Below, in pieces: positions 3,427 to 12,402 of a stretch of DNA of 12,402 nt. The notes under the pieces were generated by a model that saw only the letters and a program-made list of their open reading frames with translations, searched no databases and was not told the DNA's origin. The position numbers were made by a program, and so were the translations under genes. Source of the stretch: Cyanobacteriota bacterium (lineage in GTDB: Bacteria > Cyanobacteriota > Cyanobacteriia > Leptolyngbyales > Leptolyngbyaceae); NCBI GenBank assembly GCA_027482985.1, contig JAIXVO010000311.1, forward strand, positions 1 to 12,402, given 5' to 3'. Each line of letters starts with the position of its first letter. The stretch's first letter is position 1.

Positions 3427-3687
3427 TCAGCGGTAAACCTCACGCCGATGCCCCACCTTCACCACAGTGACGAGCAATTGCTGATCCTGAATTTCGTCAA
3501 CCACACGATATTGACTAGCCACCCGAATCCGGTACAAATCCGTTTCACCTTTGAGTTTTTTGCACCCATCTGGACGCGGATTCTCAGCCAGTAATTCAAT
3601 ATCAGCCAAAATTGTGCTTTGTACCGCTGCTTCTAATTTTCGCAGTTGCCGTAAAGCCGCAGGTTTGAAACCAACCTCATAAGCCAT
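3427..3687 (-). CDS. RelE/ParE-type toxin
   Basis: This 86-residue protein has the RelE/ParE fold pattern: a start with VGFKPAALRQLRKLE, an ILADIELLAENPRPDGCKKLKG segment, then LYRIRVASQYRVVDEI and a terminal VVKVGHRREVYR. The YRIRxxxYRVxYxI and VGHRxxVY strings are characteristic of RelE-like ribosome-dependent mRNA interferases. The conserved basic residues (Arg in YRIR, Arg in QYR, His-Arg-Arg near the end) are intact, so the toxin is probably functional. The ATG abuts the stop of the upstream antitoxin with no gap, which indicates translational coupling. Confidence 0.88.
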   Translation of the reverse strand: MAYEVGFKPAALRQLRKLEAAVQSTILADIELLAENPRPDGCKKLKGETDLYRIRVASQYRVVDEIQDQQLLVTVVKVGHRREVYR

Positions 3688-3918
3688 TTAGCGCAACCCT
3701 AATTCTCGTTTGACCTCAGCCAAAGAAATATATCCAGGTTCAGCCAAAGCCGCATGGGCATCCGCCACATCTTCAGCATCTTCAAGCGCCTCCACGTCCT
3801 GCTGATGACGTAAAAATAAAATGAAATCCAACACTGCTTGTTGGCGTCCCGCTGAAAGATGCTCGATGTTTTGAAGGATCAGATCCTGTGTTCCCATCTG
3901 CCTCATTCCTTGCAACAT
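3688..3918 (-). CDS. Antitoxin partner of the RelE-type toxin
   Basis: This 76-residue acidic protein lies immediately upstream of the RelE-like gene. The N-terminal half (TQDLILQNIEHLSAGRQQAV LDFILFL) is helical. The C-terminal part is acidic and ends ISLAEVKRELGLR, a tail typical of antitoxins that wrap their toxin. I cannot assign the DNA-binding fold firmly. Three in-frame ATGs lie at the front (codons 1, 5 and 8). An AAGGAATGAGG purine run lies just before codon 8, so MGTQDLIL may be the true start. Antitoxin-first order is standard and usually means autoregulation by the complex. Confidence 0.8.
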   Translation of the reverse strand: MLQGMRQMGTQDLILQNIEHLSAGRQQAVLDFILFLRHQQDVEALEDAEDVADAHAALAEPGYISLAEVKRELGLR

Positions 3919-7057: not shown

Positions 7058-7550
7058 ACTCGTAAGCACCCCAGTCATCGGTATAGCACTGCATAATCCC
7101 ATAGGGTTTTAACAACCCCTTGAGTTCCAGAAATGCTTTCTCTTCATGAGATGCCAGCACATACGCCACATCTCAGCCATCTCTGCCTCAAGCTCTAAAG
7201 CGTCTGCACGGCACAACCAGACGATCTCCTGATCGGGTTCAAGTTCGGCCAGAACTGCTTGATTGACCGCTTGTAAGTGCCGCTCTTTTTTTTAATTCCT
7301 CAATCACCGTGGTTGGGCTAATTCCCAACATACGAGCTGTGGCGCGAATGCCACTGCCATTGATTGCCATATCACTAATCTGCCGTTTGACATGCGGTAG
7401 GTAGCCTTGATAACTGTACTCCCGAATAAAGCTAATCCGACTGCATTCGGAATTTTGGCAGCAATAGCGTTGCTTGCCTGCCGCAGTCGTGCCATGCTTA
7501 ATCACCTCGATCCCATCACAATCGGAACCATGAATTGGTTCCAAAACCAT
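7058..7550 (-). pseudogene. Broken IS1-family transposase (InsA/InsB remnant)
   Basis: Read on the minus strand, the first part carries an InsA-like domain (GKQRYCC, then SDMAINGSGIRATARMLGIS and PTTVIEELKK), a helix-turn-helix. The first zinc-binding Cys pair expected in CPxCGS is lost (EPIHGS here). At an eight-A run (7286-7293 as T on the + strand) the frame must change to read on as RHLQAVNQAVLAELEPDQE and ALELEAEMAEMW, the start of the InsB part. Near 7165 there is an out-of-frame internal deletion. After it the text resumes in another frame as AYVLASHEEKAFLELKGLL and IMQCYTDDWGAYE, and the C-terminal catalytic part is missing. The deletion removes roughly 25 residues by comparison with remembered IS1 relatives. 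The element cannot encode an active transposase. Terminal inverted repeats and target duplications were not found. Confidence 0.8.
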
Positions 7551-8069
7551 GCACTATAGACGGACGGGAACGCTCGTCGCCTGTCTTTATCGAGGACATC
7601 ACAGAGCGCCTTTATTTCTGAATACTTCCAACTCACCCGCTCCACACCGCCTCCAAGTTGAAGCAAAAATCCTCCATTCAACGACAACCGCTTTAATCTC
7701 TAAGCCAAAGAGTGCCCAGTCTGGGTGATGCAGTAAGCTATTATCGCCAACCACCAGATACTGCAAATCCTGTTCCACATCCGCTGGCAACCGAAAGAGA
7801 TGAAACACGCTGCCAATTCCAACCTGCTCATCATGTAACCGCCGAGCGGTATCCCGAACACTGTTGTCTTGAGCCAAGCGGGTTGTTCTAGCAAAAATAG
7901 GGGCTAAAAAATTGCGGCTGGATGGAGAAAAGAAGCTGGTTGACCACCAATTGTCTTGATCCTTCTCGCCCAGGTAACCCACCAAAAGTCGCAGATGGCC
8001 ATATAAGTTGAGCGTTGAGCGATCTATAACCTCACACAGTGACAGCAAGAGAGGGGTGACTGCCCCCAT
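7551..8069 (-). pseudogene. BrxE-like gene fragment, frameshifted and 3'-truncated
   Basis: The open frame reads LRLLVGYLGEKDQDNWW, then STSFFSPSSRNFLAPIFART, ARRLHDEQVGIG and VFHLFRLPADVEQDL. This pattern matches what I remember of BrxE, a small protein of unknown role found in some BREX phage-defence loci. After EIKAVVVEW the frame loses sense, and around 7650-7690 a second frame continues with LLQLGGGVERVSWKYSEIKA and LCDVLDKDRRRAFPSVYSA. A single indel therefore broke the gene. It stops where the IS1 remnant begins, at about 7550. The start is uncertain: ATG 8069 is the first in frame, but residues before HLRLLVG look unconserved. The family assignment is from memory; decay is visible in the sequence. 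Confidence 0.5.
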
Positions 8070-8226: not shown

Positions 8227-9114
8227 TTATTGAGTTTGATGGGGGTCACGCTCGCCCGTCAACCCATACAGCTGACAGAGCGGTTCTAGCTCCTGTTTCA
8301 AGCGATCGCGCACAGCCTCCGGTGACACGATTTCGCAGTCTTTGCCGTAACGTAAGACTTCTCGAATCAACCAGAAGGTATAGGGAACTTGCCGCACCAC
8401 TCGCCGCACTTGCGGTAAATCGGTTACCCATTCGTTCACCTGATCGATCGCCGTTTTACTTTGATAGGCAAATGCCAGTCCATGAAACAGATGCAGTTCG
8501 ACAGTGATGGTATCAAGTCTGGGTCGCCATTGCCCAGGAAGGGGCGAAACGGCAGCGTCAGTAATTCGATCGAGGCGGAGACACCAATTATGCATCAGCG
8601 CTGGTAAGTCTCGATTGCCTTCGGTTTCTTCACACCAACAATCAAGGTATTGCCGCGATTCATGGGTGACAATTTCGGCATAGCGAATGGTGAAATGCCA
8701 GACTCGTTCTGCGGCATCCTGATAGGCCAACTGAAAGGGTTGTTGCCGCCGGATGAATCGTTGCACTTCCACGCGCCATGGCAACATTGGTCTGACAACA
8801 AACTGTTCCAGTTCATGCCGGAGCGGAATAGTCAGTTCGCTGCGTTCTAGCAAAAATTGGGCGATCGCGATTGCCATCTCAATCTCTCCCGCATCTACTA
8901 ATGCAGTTCTCGCCCGATTCAAGGCATTGACCCGCTCCTTTGGCCAATCATGGTTGGGCGCGATCACCAGTTCCTGCCGAGCGATCGCTTCGATCAATTT
9001 GGAAATATTTGGGCGATCGCCCCAGGTTTTGCCCAACTCCAAGGCAAGGCGCTCTAATTGAGCCTTGTCCTGCTCTGAAATAGACAGGGTAATGGAATGA
9101 CCTTTGCGACTCAT
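8227..9114 (-). CDS. WYL-domain regulator with ribbon-helix-helix N-terminus, CRISPR-associated
   Basis: This 295-residue protein has a ribbon-helix-helix-like N-terminus (SITLSISEQDKAQLERLALE, about 7-26, then ISKLIEAIARQEL), a helical middle and a WYL domain at about 125-190. That domain contains FQLAYQDAAERVWHFTIRYA and RQYLDCWCEETEGN, with QYL at the WYL position (155-157), then NWCLRLDRI. The WCX-type tail reads WLIREVLRYGKDCEIVSPEAV, a canonical ending. WYL proteins of this architecture sit beside cyanobacterial CRISPR loci; Sll7009 of Synechocystis 6803 lowers crRNA levels of its type I-D system. Divergent placement next to cas10d supports the same role here. The WYL domain is expected to sense a nucleic-acid or nucleotide ligand. 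No ribosome site precedes ATG 9114, but a TATACT box lies only 3 bp upstream, which suggests a leaderless mRNA. Confidence 0.85.
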   Translation of the reverse strand: MSRKGHSITLSISEQDKAQLERLALELGKTWGDRPNISKLIEAIARQELVIAPNHDWPKERVNALNRARTALVDAGEIEMAIAIAQFLLERSELTIPLRHELEQFVVRPMLPWRVEVQRFIRRQQPFQLAYQDAAERVWHFTIRYAEIVTHESRQYLDCWCEETEGNRDLPALMHNWCLRLDRITDAAVSPLPGQWRPRLDTITVELHLFHGLAFAYQSKTAIDQVNEWVTDLPQVRRVVRQVPYTFWLIREVLRYGKDCEIVSPEAVRDRLKQELEPLCQLYGLTGERDPHQTQ

Positions 9115-9324: not shown

Positions 9325-9456
9325 ATGACGACACTCGAAAAGTTGTTGCAGGTTTTATCAGATGGTGACTGGCATTCAACTGAGGACCTGGTGCAGGAAG
9401 TAGGACATCGCTTCTCAGCCACGATTCACGTCGCGAAGCAGAGGGGCGATCGCTAG
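9325..9456 (+). pseudogene. Truncated copy of the small winged-helix-like gene
   Basis: After an excellent ribosome site GAAGGAGG (9308-9315), ATG 9325 (or GTG 9322) opens a 43-codon frame. It reads TTLEKLLQVLSDGDWHSTED, then LVQEVGHRFSATIHVAKQRG and a stop. It aligns along its length with the N-terminal half of the 76-residue protein at 9825: LSDGDWHSTEDL versus LADGEWHWSEEL, and HRFSATI versus WRFGATI. The frame ends inside a GCGATCGC octamer (9446-9453), where the intact copy continues GYLIETGSLGKHYRYRL. No continuation is found in other frames. It is probably a decayed duplicate, although the strong ribosome site means a 43-residue peptide could still be made. Confidence 0.65.
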
Positions 9457-9516
9457 ATACCCCGAAACATCTCGACCAACAGCCTGTTGAAAGGAGGTAA
9501 ATTATCGTTTTAGGAA
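9457..9516. other. Gap with an orphan ribosome-binding-site-like sequence
   Basis: GTTGAAAGGAGG at about 9485-9496 closely repeats the GTTGAAGGAGG ahead of the truncated HTH gene at 9325, but no credible start codon and reading frame follows. It may be a leftover from a lost gene copy. It lies just beyond the 3' end of the crRNA-like locus. Confidence 0.4.
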
Positions 9517-9556
9517 AATTATTGTCCCGGTATCGGGATTTATTGGAGATGGAAAT
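9517..9556 (-). repeat. Degenerate type I-D CRISPR repeat, handle lost
   Basis: This unit is about 40 nt. The 5' part TTTCCATCTCC and the ATCCCG-ATAC-CGGGAC stem resemble the type I-D repeat, but the terminal TGAAAC is replaced by AATAATT. The degeneration is complementary to that of the other unit, as in crRNA-like regulators and also in terminal repeats of old arrays. Confidence 0.55.
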
Positions 9557-9591
9557 AAGGCAGGTTGCACAAAGCAAGTGCAGACATATTT

Positions 9592-9628
9592 GTTTCAGTC
9601 CCGAATCGGGATTGGAATTGACTTTCAG
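9592..9628 (-). repeat. Degenerate type I-D CRISPR repeat, handle-bearing
   Basis: This unit is 37 nt. Its 3' half is intact in type I-D form (AATCCCG-AT-TCGGGACTGAAAC), sharing the last 13 nt with the Synechocystis CRISPR1 repeat as I remember it. Its 5' half (CTGAAAGTCAATTCC) has diverged. The half that is kept is the one Cas6 needs to make the crRNA 5' end. Confidence 0.65.
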
Positions 9629-9633
9629 TCAGT

Positions 9634-9663
9634 TGTATATCCATCCAACTTACAGTCTATCAG
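9634..9663 (-). promoter_or_regulatory. Candidate promoter of the crRNA-like RNA
   Basis: On the minus strand, CTGATA (+ 9658-9663, 4/6 match to -35) and TATACA (+ 9634-9639, 4/6 match to -10) are 18 bp apart. A start about 7 nt downstream falls at about 9627, the first bases of the handle-bearing repeat. A dedicated promoter directly ahead of the first pseudo-repeat is typical of CreA-type genes. The boxes are weak by themselves; their position gives them weight. Confidence 0.4.
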
Positions 9664-9705
9664 TATGGTTGCGCCGTCCTACCCTAACGTTCCTTTTGAT
9701 TACCT

Positions 9706-9724
9706 AAGTTCAGACATATTTAAC
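9706..9724 (-). promoter_or_regulatory. Predicted target (partial protospacer with GTT PAM) of the crRNA-like RNA
   Basis: The minus strand reads GTT followed by AAATATGTCTGAACTT. The spacer of the crRNA-like locus begins AAATATGTCTGCACTT. Positions 1-11 and 13-16 match and position 12 does not; from 17 onward similarity stops. Type I effectors flip out every sixth guide base, so position 12 is the place where a mismatch should cost least. GTT fits the GTN/GTH PAM reported for type I-D. Weak promoter boxes TTGATT (9696-9701) and TATTTA (9717-9722, 15 bp apart) overlap the site on the + strand, about 100 bp ahead of the HTH-cas10d genes. Confidence 0.6.
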
Positions 9725-9748
9725 CCTTGCTTCCAGCTATCGAATACG

Positions 9749-9788
9749 CTACCTTTTGATCAACAGAAGAAGGTAGTTCGTTTGAACT
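9749..9788. promoter_or_regulatory. Two inverted repeats in the HTH-cas10d leader
   Basis: CTACCTT (9749-9755) and AAGGTAG (9770-9776) form a 7-bp inverted repeat whose loop contains the palindrome TTGATCAA (9756-9763). Next to it, AGTTC-GTTT-GAACT spans 9775-9788. They lie between the predicted guide target and the ribosome site AGGGAGA (9814-9820). They may be operators for the small HTH protein or the WYL regulator, or a leader hairpin. Confidence 0.35.
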
Positions 9789-9824: not shown

Positions 9825-10055
9825 ATGCCAAGTCTGAACAAAACCAAAGTTGAACTGCTTTTGGAAGCTCTTGCTGACGGAGAGTGGCACTGGAGTGAGG
9901 AATTAGCAAGTAAGGTTAGCTGGCGATTCGGAGCCACCATCAAAGATGCACGAGACAAGGGTTACCTGATCGAAACTGGCTCTTTAGGTAAGCATTACCG
10001 CTACCGCTTATGCAGCGGTTACCCTGTCCAAGCTAAGCAGAAGAAAGGGAGTTGA
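9825..10055 (+). CDS. Small winged-helix-like protein leading the cas10d operon
   Basis: This 76-residue basic protein reads NKTKVELLLEALADGEWHWS, then EELASKVSWRFGATIKDARD, KGYLIETGSLGKHYRYRL and a basic tail. The pattern of a helix, a DG(E/D)WH turn, a helix-turn-helix and a beta-wing ending in YRYRL is typical of small winged-helix DNA-binding proteins. I know no characterised homologue. It is preceded by the ribosome site AGGGAGA (9814-9820), its stop is 2 bp from the cas10d start, and it is therefore almost certainly co-transcribed with cas10d. It is probably a local transcription regulator. A broken copy lies at 9325. Confidence 0.75.
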   Translation: MPSLNKTKVELLLEALADGEWHWSEELASKVSWRFGATIKDARDKGYLIETGSLGKHYRYRLCSGYPVQAKQKKGS

Positions 10056-10057
10056 TA

Positions 10058-12402
10058 ATGAAACTATTAAACCGTCCTCCCAAGACACTTGAAGAACGCT
10101 ATTTCAGTGAAATTCGACCCCTTCTCTACGAACGACACGGAACTCAGCACCAATGGGGTACGCGAGAAAAACACACCCTGGCAGAACATCTCGATTCTGC
10201 TTGCCAGTTTGTTTTGACCGTTAGCAAAATGGCAGGAGTGCCAGATGATAAACGGGCTGTGATTCTAGCAGCTACAGCAGTGCATGACTTAAACAAGTTG
10301 GACAAGTCTGAACGTAAAGTTAAGACTTTGGCGAGAGACAAAGATTTTTTGCGAGAACAGCTAGAAGAAGCTGGAGTGAACAGTTTTGTCCCAAGTGAAG
10401 CTGAACTTGAACTGGTGAGACGTTTAATTGAACGACACTCCGGGCATAACGCGAGTGATGGGGCATTATTTTTACCCGAAGACCCTCAAATTAAGCGGTG
10501 GGTCGCGATTCTAATTGCCGCAGATTTATTCGATCTGGGCTTACCAGCAGACAAACTGACCCAAAAACTTCAGAAAGAGTTAACGGTCGCGTTAAATCGT
10601 CCCAGCAACTTGTATCAGATTCGAATTTCTGAGGATCGAGGTTACATGACGGCACTGCTACTTGCTGCTTGTGAAGAAGTTCTGATCGAGTACAAGTTGA
10701 CTCCTCTAGCAATTTCCCCAGATGGTGAATTGTTTGAAGGTGAAGGGTTTCCAGAGGTTGACCTAGTGCCTAAAATTGCAGCTCGTTGGCAATCTAAAAT
10801 CGATGCAGTTTTTGGCAATAACATTGACCAGCTTGTGAAGCCTGGAAATAATGGCATTCGGATTATGTCCCAAGCTGTTCAGCAAGATTTGCAGGAAGTC
10901 ATCACTGTTGTGCTGTATCACCTGGAAAGAAAAAAGGCTGGCTACAAGGCAGAAAAAGTCCAAGCAGAGGTGAATAAACACCTGACCAAAGTTGATCCAA
11001 CGGCTTTGAAGGCTGCAAGTGAGGTGGGACTATTACCTGTTGACTCGGCTGAAGCGTTTGCTCTAGCAGAAGGACTGAAGGCTGCTTTTGTCAGTTATCG
11101 CAAGGTCAAACCTGATATACCCGTTGATCAAGTGTGGGACAGGCTGGCTGCTCATGTTGGTTTATCAGAACAACAACGTCAGGCTTTGCAACCTTTCAAT
11201 GAGCAATATGGGCGATCGCTGCTGGCAGCAAAAGCCATCACAACAGGCATAGAAGGGATTAAAACGGCTTTGATGGAATCGCTGGAAATGAGAAGAGGTT
11301 CAGCGAGTAGTGAGTCCGAAGAAGTAGAAGTTGCAGAAGATTTAGTCGCGCTGGCTGCTAGAACACTGAATTTGCCGCACAGCAATCGGTTAGCAGGCTT
11401 CAGTGAGTTGGATACTTATACCCAAGTAAATCCAAGGCAACGCTGTTCTTTAGGACCAACAGTGAGTGGTACCGAAGACTTAGCTGCAATGCCAGTGGGT
11501 ACAAAGGTTCAGGTGTTTTCTAATCGCCTGCCAGGTGGTTTGGTGGCAGAACCCAAAAGACAAGCAGAATCAACCACTCTACGGGCATACCAATTACTTG
11601 CGATCGGGGCTAACTTTCCGGCGATTAAGAAGGAGCCACCGTATTATTTGCATCTGGCATTACCAGTGGGTTCATGCCCAGAACTGTTAAGAATCTGGAG
11701 AGAATGCCTCCTAGATCTGGCTAGAACGAATGCAGAGGGTGGTCCCGTTTCTGTAGATGTGGTCAAGCTGTATCGGGATAATGCAGTTGAATTTACTCCA
11801 AATAAGGTAGTGGGAGTTGCGTTTCCGAAACGTCCGGAGTTTGTTCACAATGTTGTTCCCTTGCCGATGGTTTGGGGGGATGCTAATACTTCAGTGGCTT
11901 TGCTTAAATCTTTGCGACTCGCTTTAGAACTTTCACTTTCTTTTGATTTTGGATTTCCATTTGTCTTGAGTTCCAGTTTGCAAATTGAACCCTCAACAGA
12001 ATTTCATGGACGGGTAGAAGGGATTCCGACTTCATTTTCTAGCTTGTTGAAAACTGGACGGTATAGCAGAGAAGAAGCAGAAATTGTGCGCGATCGCCTC
12101 CGCTGGTTAGGCAATCTCGTACAAGCAGTTGCTAGCATTCCAAAATTTGATGACTGCCTTTATGACTTAGCACGAGCAACGTCTTCACCCCTCAATCTGT
12201 ACTATGTTCTGCTCCGCTGGATTCTCCGAGAAAATGACCAACCGAACCTCATTACATTTTGGAGAAAAATACGTGAACCCTTGAAAAAACTACTGGAGAG
12301 CCTTATGCCTGATGAAAACAATGCCCTGACTGAATATCTGAAAGCAGCTACTCAAATTGCTGCGGAGGGAAGAATTTGGGGGAGTTCCTGGGAGCGTAGC
12401 CC
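10058..12402 (+). CDS. cas10d: Cas10d/Csc3, type I-D CRISPR large subunit with HD nuclease, 3' end outside window
   Basis: The frame is open from ATG 10058 to the window edge: 781 codons with no stop, about four fifths of the usual Csc3 length (about 950-1000). The N-terminal HD nuclease domain has H39, H44, the H76-D77 pair in AVHDLNKLDK, H127/H130 in ERHSGHN and D156 in IAADLFDLG, so its metal ligands look intact. The middle is the diverged Cas10 palm-like region. The last part (HGRVEGIPTSFSSLLKTGRY, then RLRWLGNLVQAVASIP and YVLLRWILRENDQPN) matches the helical C-terminal region of Csc3. Cas10d is the large subunit of the I-D effector and carries its nuclease. A ribosome site (AAAGGGAG) lies 6-7 nt upstream. 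The usual upstream gene, the Cas3 helicase, is not present here. Confidence 0.9.
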   Translation, partial: MKLLNRPPKTLEERYFSEIRPLLYERHGTQHQWGTREKHTLAEHLDSACQFVLTVSKMAGVPDDKRAVILAATAVHDLNKLDKSERKVKTLARDKDFLREQLEEAGVNSFVPSEAELELVRRLIERHSGHNASDGALFLPEDPQIKRWVAILIAADLFDLGLPADKLTQKLQKELTVALNRPSNLYQIRISEDRGYMTALLLAACEEVLIEYKLTPLAISPDGELFEGEGFPEVDLVPKIAARWQSKIDAVFGNNIDQLVKPGNNGIRIMSQAVQQDLQEVITVVLYHLERKKAGYKAEKVQAEVNKHLTKVDPTALKAASEVGLLPVDSAEAFALAEGLKAAFVSYRKVKPDIPVDQVWDRLAAHVGLSEQQRQALQPFNEQYGRSLLAAKAITTGIEGIKTALMESLEMRRGSASSESEEVEVAEDLVALAARTLNLPHSNRLAGFSELDTYTQVNPRQRCSLGPTVSGTEDLAAMPVGTKVQVFSNRLPGGLVAEPKRQAESTTLRAYQLLAIGANFPAIKKEPPYYLHLALPVGSCPELLRIWRECLLDLARTNAEGGPVSVDVVKLYRDNAVEFTPNKVVGVAFPKRPEFVHNVVPLPMVWGDANTSVALLKSLRLALELSLSFDFGFPFVLSSSLQIEPSTEFHGRVEGIPTSFSSLLKTGRYSREEAEIVRDRLRWLGNLVQAVASIPKFDDCLYDLARATSSPLNLYYVLLRWILRENDQPNLITFWRKIREPLKKLLESLMPDENNALTEYLKAATQIAAEGRIWGSSWERS

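Follow-up and report, generated by a model that had tools for sequence, protein, structure and literature searches.

A predicted CreR-like guide element upstream of cas10d in cyanobacterial type I-D CRISPR loci

Introduction

What is a single spacer flanked by two degenerate repeats doing directly upstream of the cas genes of a cyanobacterial type I-D CRISPR system, when its first bases recur beside a PAM in front of those same genes? CreR RNAs are credited with autorepression in types I-B, I-E and V-A (Liu et al. 2023, cited by PMC13131331 and PMC12737573) and are described in PMC12737573 as responding to the crRNA level and to anti-CRISPRs, and degenerate repeats are, according to PMC9458426, typical of CreA. 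Type I-D is given in PMC11903412 as the commonest type I system of cyanobacteria, present in 63.2% of the genomes surveyed, and for Synechocystis the review PMC10212523 lists Sll7009, a WYL protein, among negative regulation factors. Based on the sequence comparisons presented here we consider it highly probable that the mini-array is a type I-D CreR, that is, a source of crRNA-like RNA predicted to guide the I-D complex to the hth-cas10d promoter without cutting.

Results

Organization of the window

The window, i.e. the whole stretch of 12,402 nt that was analysed, is an entire contig, G000:C656. The draft cyanobacterial genome from which it comes has 838 contigs and is 84% complete. The contig terminates within cas10d and leaves the remaining operon beyond its end. 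The features on which the analysis is based are:

8227–9114, minus strand: divergent regulator with a WYL/WCX domain (PF25583 and PDLC01652)
9325–9456, plus strand: older HTH gene, truncated, 43 aa by translation, with 95% identity across 43 aa to the HTH from the same-genus genome G149
9515–9538, minus strand: terminator-like site, formed by the psi-repeat 2 stem and CAATAATTTT; same arrangement in locus L225, function putative
9519–9555, minus strand: psi-repeat 2, with the CCCG-CGGG stem kept and the ACTGAAAC tail lost; boundaries by analogy
9556–9591, minus strand: spacer (guide) AAATATGTCTGCACTTGCTTTGTGCAACCTGCCTTA, 36 nt, its pairing part being the first 16 nt, a limit taken from 18 aligned pairs
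9592–9628, minus strand: psi-repeat 1, CTGAAAGTCAATTCCAATCCCGATTCGGGACTGAAAC, a degenerate I-D repeat with a predicted CCCG-AUU-CGGG stem, the 8-nt 5' handle ACTGAAAC and a core as in G000:C804 and G115
9706–9721, minus strand: target AAATATGTCTGAACTT, from sequence and repeat search, identical to the guide in 15/16 positions, mismatch at position 12
9722–9724, minus strand: GTT PAM, 5' of the target
9727–9755, plus strand: candidate hth-cas10d promoter, TTGCTT-17-TACCTT, or with the −10 at TATCGA (9738–9743); weak by consensus
9825–10055, plus strand: HTH gene of 76 aa, with which the predicted operon begins (PDLC01152, E 5.2e-32)
10058–12402, plus strand: cas10d of the short variant, truncated where the contig ends (PDLC02021 Cas10_Id, 1254.7 bits)

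The initial annotation of this DNA described two imperfect I-D-type repeats on the minus strand around a 35-nt spacer, and direct reading bears out the repeats and the spacer as such, the length of the latter being 36 nt by the boundaries used here. The target was correctly placed upstream of cas10d, but the HTH gene that comes first, 103 bp from the target, had been missed. It is separated by 2 bp from cas10d, which starts with ATG at 10058 and whose product matches the PADLOC model Cas10_Id of 893 positions. In a search for the remaining I-D operon Csc2 was not found in the window's own genome, an 84% complete draft, and all three Cas1 matches fell on other contigs; since the rest of the operon is missing and Csc2 was not found, the I-D complex of this strain is a predicted one. 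Elsewhere on the minus strand of the window a BrxE-family ORF fragment adjoins an InsA-type HTH fragment (7599–8069 and 7239–7550), possibly a remnant of another defence island, and a ParE-type toxin gene (3427–3918) with a small ORF upstream likely forms a toxin-antitoxin (TA) pair.

The core of psi-repeat 1, AATCCCG..CGGGACTGAAAC, is common to the repeats of two arrays. One is in contig G000:C804 of the same genome, with a repeat that ends AATCCCGATCGCCGGGACTGAAAC; the other belongs to G115 from the same family, and its repeat AATCCCGGCAACGGGACTGAAAC shares an 18-kb stretch with a Cas10d of 66% identity. The presumed kinship of the two units with the I-D repeat of this genome is thus supported, and they are related to repeats of the cognate system, the own-genome I-D array being a fragment assigned by similarity. 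This fragment (G000:C804:1-130, locus L112) is the end of an array whose repeat is of the I-D type and whose last repeat is degenerate. The remainder of the array is absent from the assembly; the gene adjoining this end is presumably rpsB-like.

As an ordinary CRISPR array the element does not qualify, since its repeats are non-identical and its spacer fits DNA upstream of its own cas genes. Its layout is that of CreR: next to cas genes, a single spacer between two repeat-like units.

Guide and target

The pairing part of the guide, AAATATGTCTGCACTT, and the target show a single difference, at position 12: positions 1–11 and 13–16 match, and past position 16 no similarity is left. The match reported for the window (15/16 beside GTT, 9721–9706 of the minus strand) is therefore confirmed, and a repeat search pairs guide and target over 16 nt at 94%. 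A partial match of this kind (15/16, GTT), upstream of hth-cas10d and beside the PAM of the subtype, is a further trait of CreR, the promoter of the window being weak.

For scoring we used the I-D rules given in PMC10212523 (GTN PAM, 8-nt handle, 35-nt spacers, flipped sixth bases), and the target score was taken as the best match over 14 positions (1–16 without 6 and 12) beside GTN in the same upstream region. The window site scores 14/14, a value reached by 65 of 415,467 other sites in the 77 upstream regions described below, and the best score among 20 shuffles of the window spacer was 10. As had been claimed, the match goes beyond chance, which was rejected as its source. Folding of the predicted guide RNA showed no significant excess over shuffles (z −1.4, with 22 of 200 shuffles equally good) and was rejected as support for a guide RNA.

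Recurrence in loci with short and long Cas10d

The Cas10d of the window was searched against 388 genomes of the class and matched in 33. A scan of genome contigs yielded 70 Cas10d loci, of which 68 were used (L102 and L104 were dropped as partial matches); together with the window and 13 non-duplicate loci from the 388-genome search they made up 82, and removal of five with less than 600 nt upstream left a first set of 77. It includes a few distant loci (Poribacteria, L034) as well as L032, where Cas10d is a piece and the DNA upstream of it is not that of the operon. Repeat-like sites were defined blind to targets, as a stem followed by a handle like ATTGAAAC or ACTGAAAC, with native arrays masked. 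There were 40 such sites in 34 loci, and their target scores fell into two groups: at least 12/14 in 14 sites, 11/14 in none and 10 or less in 26. In the background of 415,467 other sites, scores of at least 12 make up 0.26% and scores of at least 13 make up 0.048%.

As a control, the same strict rules were applied with five altered handles. This yielded 178 sites (78 from the first set and 100 from the second, see below), 1 of which scored 12 or more, as compared with 43 of 132 sites for the real handles in both sets with arrays masked and the stem required. A loose scan (handle 6/8, no stem, arrays unmasked) gave 28 pairs with the real handles and 26, 25, 29 and 8 with altered ones, and the altered-handle pairs were attributed to native arrays and tandem repeats. 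For further comparison we assembled 18 short-Cas10d pairs, 13 of them from the 14 strict-scan sites and 5 from looser scans (L028, L068, L069, L076, L089); many guide-target pairs share descent, and the counts are not independent. Two cases were excluded: L086, with its target on the opposite strand 230 nt off, and L103, a Poribacteria locus with the element on the plus strand. In L103 the repeat-like site and its target (−1776 and −1670) match 14/14 with a mismatch at position 6 and a GTT PAM, which makes it a possible non-cyanobacterial case. No counted guide-target pair was found in 59 of the 77 loci of the first set, and in L043 and L092 repeat-like sites are present for which no matching target was found.

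Intergenic DNA of the window matched 2 of 42 genomes of the order, its own and G122. In the latter the mini-array lies between cas3d and HTH-cas10d of an I-D system with a long Cas10d, with cas7d, cas5d and cas6d downstream. The G122 guide resembles that of the window shifted by one base, and its match is 12/16 to a target on the other strand, the best in register being 10/16; since the guide is out of register by one base, G122 was counted as a lead only. A long-Cas10d match was found in 101 of the 388 genomes, distant ones included. Upstream regions of 60 better, mostly full-length matches and that of G122 were taken, and after one shorter than 900 nt was dropped, 60 loci formed the second set. 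They contain 92 repeat-like sites, 29 of which, in 29 loci, have a target at 12/14 or more, against a background of 0.34% among 170,000 sampled sites. In the other 31 loci no counted pair was found, and none occurs in any of the eight loci L248–L255, whose Cas10d is about 50% identical to the long query.

Guides of 14 of the 29 long-Cas10d pairs start with AAATA or GAATA and hold GTCTG, as the guide of the window does. Two or more targets at 11/14 or better are available to the guide in 12 of the 29 long-Cas10d loci; more than one target is found for 3 of the 18 short-Cas10d guides. In 8 of 12 AAATA-GTCTG loci (e.g. L198, L196, L209) two targets stand head to head, PAM to PAM, 7–8 nt apart, an arrangement as if two effectors were meant for one promoter.

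Pairing rules, co-variation and PAM

In the 18 pairs the mismatches at positions 1 to 16 number 0, 0, 0, 0, 0, 13, 0, 0, 3, 3, 0, 13, 6, 2, 1 and 3, and past position 16 they climb to roughly chance level. The long-Cas10d pairs (n = 29) have mismatches in 19/29 at position 6 and 19/29 at position 12, 10 at position 10 and 6 each at positions 11 and 16. Pairing thus stops at about 16 in both groups (18 and 29 pairs), a match predicted to be too short for interference, as is proper to CreR. The pairs were selected by a score blind to 6 and 12, and tests with equal weights and with other phases were used as checks free of that bias. When all 16 positions counted alike, mismatches among the 14 top-scoring sites numbered 9 at position 6, 8 at position 12 and 0–5 elsewhere, and the number of first-set sites scoring 13 or more was 10 upon exclusion of 6 and 12 and 3 or 4 for any other pair of positions six apart. 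Such accumulation at 6 and 12, which had escaped the initial annotation, as had the breadth of the element, is as would be expected of flipped-out bases. According to PMC10212523, type I-D effectors flip out every sixth base, with the count beginning at position one, which differs from the free positions 6 and 12 seen here; the review's general description of the type I seed exempts position 6.

Seed and target vary together across related loci, a comparison that the initial annotation had called for: the 18 seeds match their own targets with a mean of 13.0/14 and those of other loci with 5.4, and none of 20,000 permutations was as good. For the 29 long-Cas10d pairs the values are 12.9 and 5.8, and here too 0 of 20,000 permutations did equally well. 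Of the 18 short-Cas10d seeds, 16 fitted their own target best or equally best and 9 fitted it better than any other, the latter number being this low because related loci have seeds in common. A group of eight loci whose first ORF is short shows joint changes of guide and target at positions 1, 3, 5, 7, 8 and 15. These data bear on the supposition that the element is a leftover array, an old self-targeting spacer with decayed repeats and no current function. Its degenerate repeats, the second without a handle, would suit such an origin, as would the weak promoter of the window and the truncated older HTH copy nearby. However, seed and target stay matched while varying across loci, their mismatches fall at 6 and 12, and decay would not preserve positions 1–16 yet release those from 17 onward, which makes a functionless relic very improbable as compared with a working type I-D CreR.

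When the PAM was not demanded and long near-identical repeats were dropped, targets scoring 13 or more were preceded by GTT or GTC in 11 of 11 cases in the first set and in 21 of 23 in the second (32/34 in total). Both the PAM and the position upstream of cas genes, noticed earlier in the window, hence recur in related loci. One can also imagine that the two copies of the 16-mer are operators bound by the HTH or the WYL regulator and that one of them adjoins a repeat by chance. Regulators of both kinds do flank the site, and the head-to-head target pairs of long-Cas10d loci resemble an operator. Yet one copy begins right at the handle end, which is so by site definition, though with altered handles 1 of 178 sites had a target at 12 or more, and the other directly follows GTT or GTC though no PAM was demanded. 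Moreover, the sequence varies widely across loci and the 6/12 pattern would have no obvious reason in a protein site, so that the operator explanation is scarcely credible to us, even less so than a relic.

Promoter-like signals and genes behind the target

In 16 of the 18 short-Cas10d loci (12 of 13 from the strict scan) a TANNNT box, defined as at least a 4/6 match to TATAAT, is found 13–17 bp past the target, as compared with 6.8% in the background, the 13–17 bp stretch having been picked after viewing the data. At the usual promoter spacing the −35 region would then be covered by the target, and TGACA is part of the target in 6 of the 18 loci. The two loci without the box at this offset are L068 and the window, which reads CTATCGA there; a CTATCG motif is present downstream of targets, mostly further off, in several long-Cas10d relatives. 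No plus-strand sigma-70 site was called in the hth-cas10d upstream region of the window, and together with the absence of TANNNT at the usual offset this makes the blocked promoter least clear in the window itself. For the mini-array, a −10-like box lies within 40 nt upstream of repeat 1 in 15/18 and 28/29 loci (background 28–30%), and a second stem is present in 14/18 (background 6.6%) and 25/29 (background 1.0%), signals that favour a transcription unit of its own. The terminator-like site, which in the window (9515–9538) is a candidate end of the guide RNA, occurs in 10 of 18 short-Cas10d loci and in 1 of 29 long-Cas10d loci.

The genes that follow the target raise the question of an antitoxin of the CreA type, in which case the guide would chiefly silence a toxin of the operon and addict the cell to the I-D complex, control of cas genes being secondary. 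TA-like ORFs were seen by eye between target and cas10d in 6 of 18 short-Cas10d positives (L015, L053, L044, L068, L076, L089); for two of these loci Pfam gave DUF433 and DUF5615 (L044) or Polbeta and a HepT-like domain (L076), and in Dolichospermum annotated nucleotidyltransferase and DUF86 genes occupy the same place. A short ORF of roughly 55–70 aa comes first in 10 of 18 loci, and four of these that were tested had no Pfam match above the cut-off and no PADLOC match. On the other hand, no TA-like ORF was seen in this interval in the other 12 of the 18 positives, and in the window the HTH gene is directly followed by cas10d, with no TA pair there and no known toxin by Pfam or PADLOC. The antitoxin role is unlikely, if less so than the two alternatives already discussed, and a type I-D CreR acting on cas genes is preferred. 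Among side observations, TA-like genes of the DUF433/DUF5615 or nucleotidyltransferase/HepT-like kinds also follow the target upstream of cas10d in L258, and a short first ORF with an acidic end stands directly upstream of cas10d in L058, L046, L041, L064, L090, L095, L009, L080, L028 and L067.

Discussion

The claim that sequence supports most strongly is that guide-target pairing has apparently been selected by a type I effector with a GTT/GTC PAM upstream of I-D genes. Repression is the likeliest outcome, over activation or another use of binding, given that the target overlaps promoter-like boxes and that CreR behaves so in other types. According to the proposed scheme the mini-array would be transcribed from the minus strand, its transcript would be processed by Cas6 at the handle and the guide RNA loaded into the I-D complex, which, as pairing stops at 16, would bind the target without cleavage and block RNA polymerase at the hth-cas10d promoter. 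If the complex were occupied by normal crRNAs or disabled by an anti-CRISPR, repression would weaken and the cell would make more Cas protein, as with CreR elsewhere. Phage mimics of the guides were sought in two viral scans, one of which gave four stretches with no repeat stem or array around them by eye, and the other none.

The copy in the window may have a composite history. The HTH genes nearest to that at 9825 belong to long-Cas10d loci, with identities of up to 71%, and the truncated one at 9325 is also close to HTH genes in genomes with short-Cas10d loci, e.g. G099, G303 and G115. These HTH similarities and the guide shared with long-Cas10d loci suggest that a CreR-HTH cassette from a long-Cas10d system displaced an older HTH gene before the short-Cas10d operon. 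A broader picture, which we doubt slightly more than we trust, is that guide-based self-control is standard in cyanobacterial type I-D and travels as a cassette. In this genome CreR, target promoter and HTH gene of a long-Cas10d system would have been swapped in before the short-Cas10d operon, displacing the old HTH, and would now serve as a readout of a different effector. The guide of the donor family would meet two head-to-head targets, which would place two effectors PAM to PAM at a single promoter; at some loci this promoter would also drive toxin-antitoxin genes, tying autorepression to addiction.

Among named strains the element is found on plasmids of Picosynechococcus sp. PCC 7117 (score 13; locus L225, guide AAATACGTCTGTACTTATTGGT, plasmid record NZ_CP016482.1), Dolichospermum sp. 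UHCC 0315A (14) and Anabaena sp. 90 (13). In Leptolyngbya sp. BL0902 (L028) it was detected by looser scans and not by the strict one, and in Stanieria PCC 7437 the best score was 10. No repeat-like site was found by the same scan in Synechocystis 6803, Picosynechococcus PCC 7002 and Gloeothece PCC 7822, and for Synechocystis 6803 and PCC 7002, the usual models, this result may explain why the element went unnoticed there. If the proposed role is true, RNA-guided self-control extends to type I-D and adds a second layer to the WYL repressor known from Synechocystis. The natural pairs would also disclose the pairing rules of the I-D effector (16 bases, positions 6 and 12 ignored, GTT or GTC PAM), and they are a possible source of natural non-cutting guides for gene silencing in cyanobacteria.

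In the literature searched, which did not cover Liu 2023 and Shmakov 2023, a CreR of type I-D was not found. With CreR of types I-B, I-E and V-A, as portrayed in PMC13131331 and PMC12737573, the likeness consists in a mini-CRISPR beside cas genes, a crRNA-like RNA, a partial match to a cas promoter and predicted autorepression. The differences are that here the effector is of type I-D with Cas10d, the match comprises 16 nt with 6 and 12 free beside a GTT/GTC PAM, the targets are often doubled head to head in one long-Cas10d seed group, and HTH, small or TA-like genes stand between promoter and cas10d. Mini-arrays with standalone repeats were reportedly predicted by Shmakov et al. in 2023 in many type I subtypes, an entry for I-D being possible; they are likewise regulatory mini-arrays near cas promoters, mostly of type I. 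CreA of CreTA/CrePA, as presented in PMC9458426 and PMC12737573, shares two degenerate psi-repeats and a spacer partly matching a promoter, whereas in the window the place of a known toxin as first gene is taken by an HTH regulator, with cas10d behind it. Finally, Racr and solitary phage repeat units, in the description of PMC10651486, are similar in being repeat-like RNA outside arrays, but the element described here lies beside cas genes and has two repeats with a matching guide, and is not a decoy.
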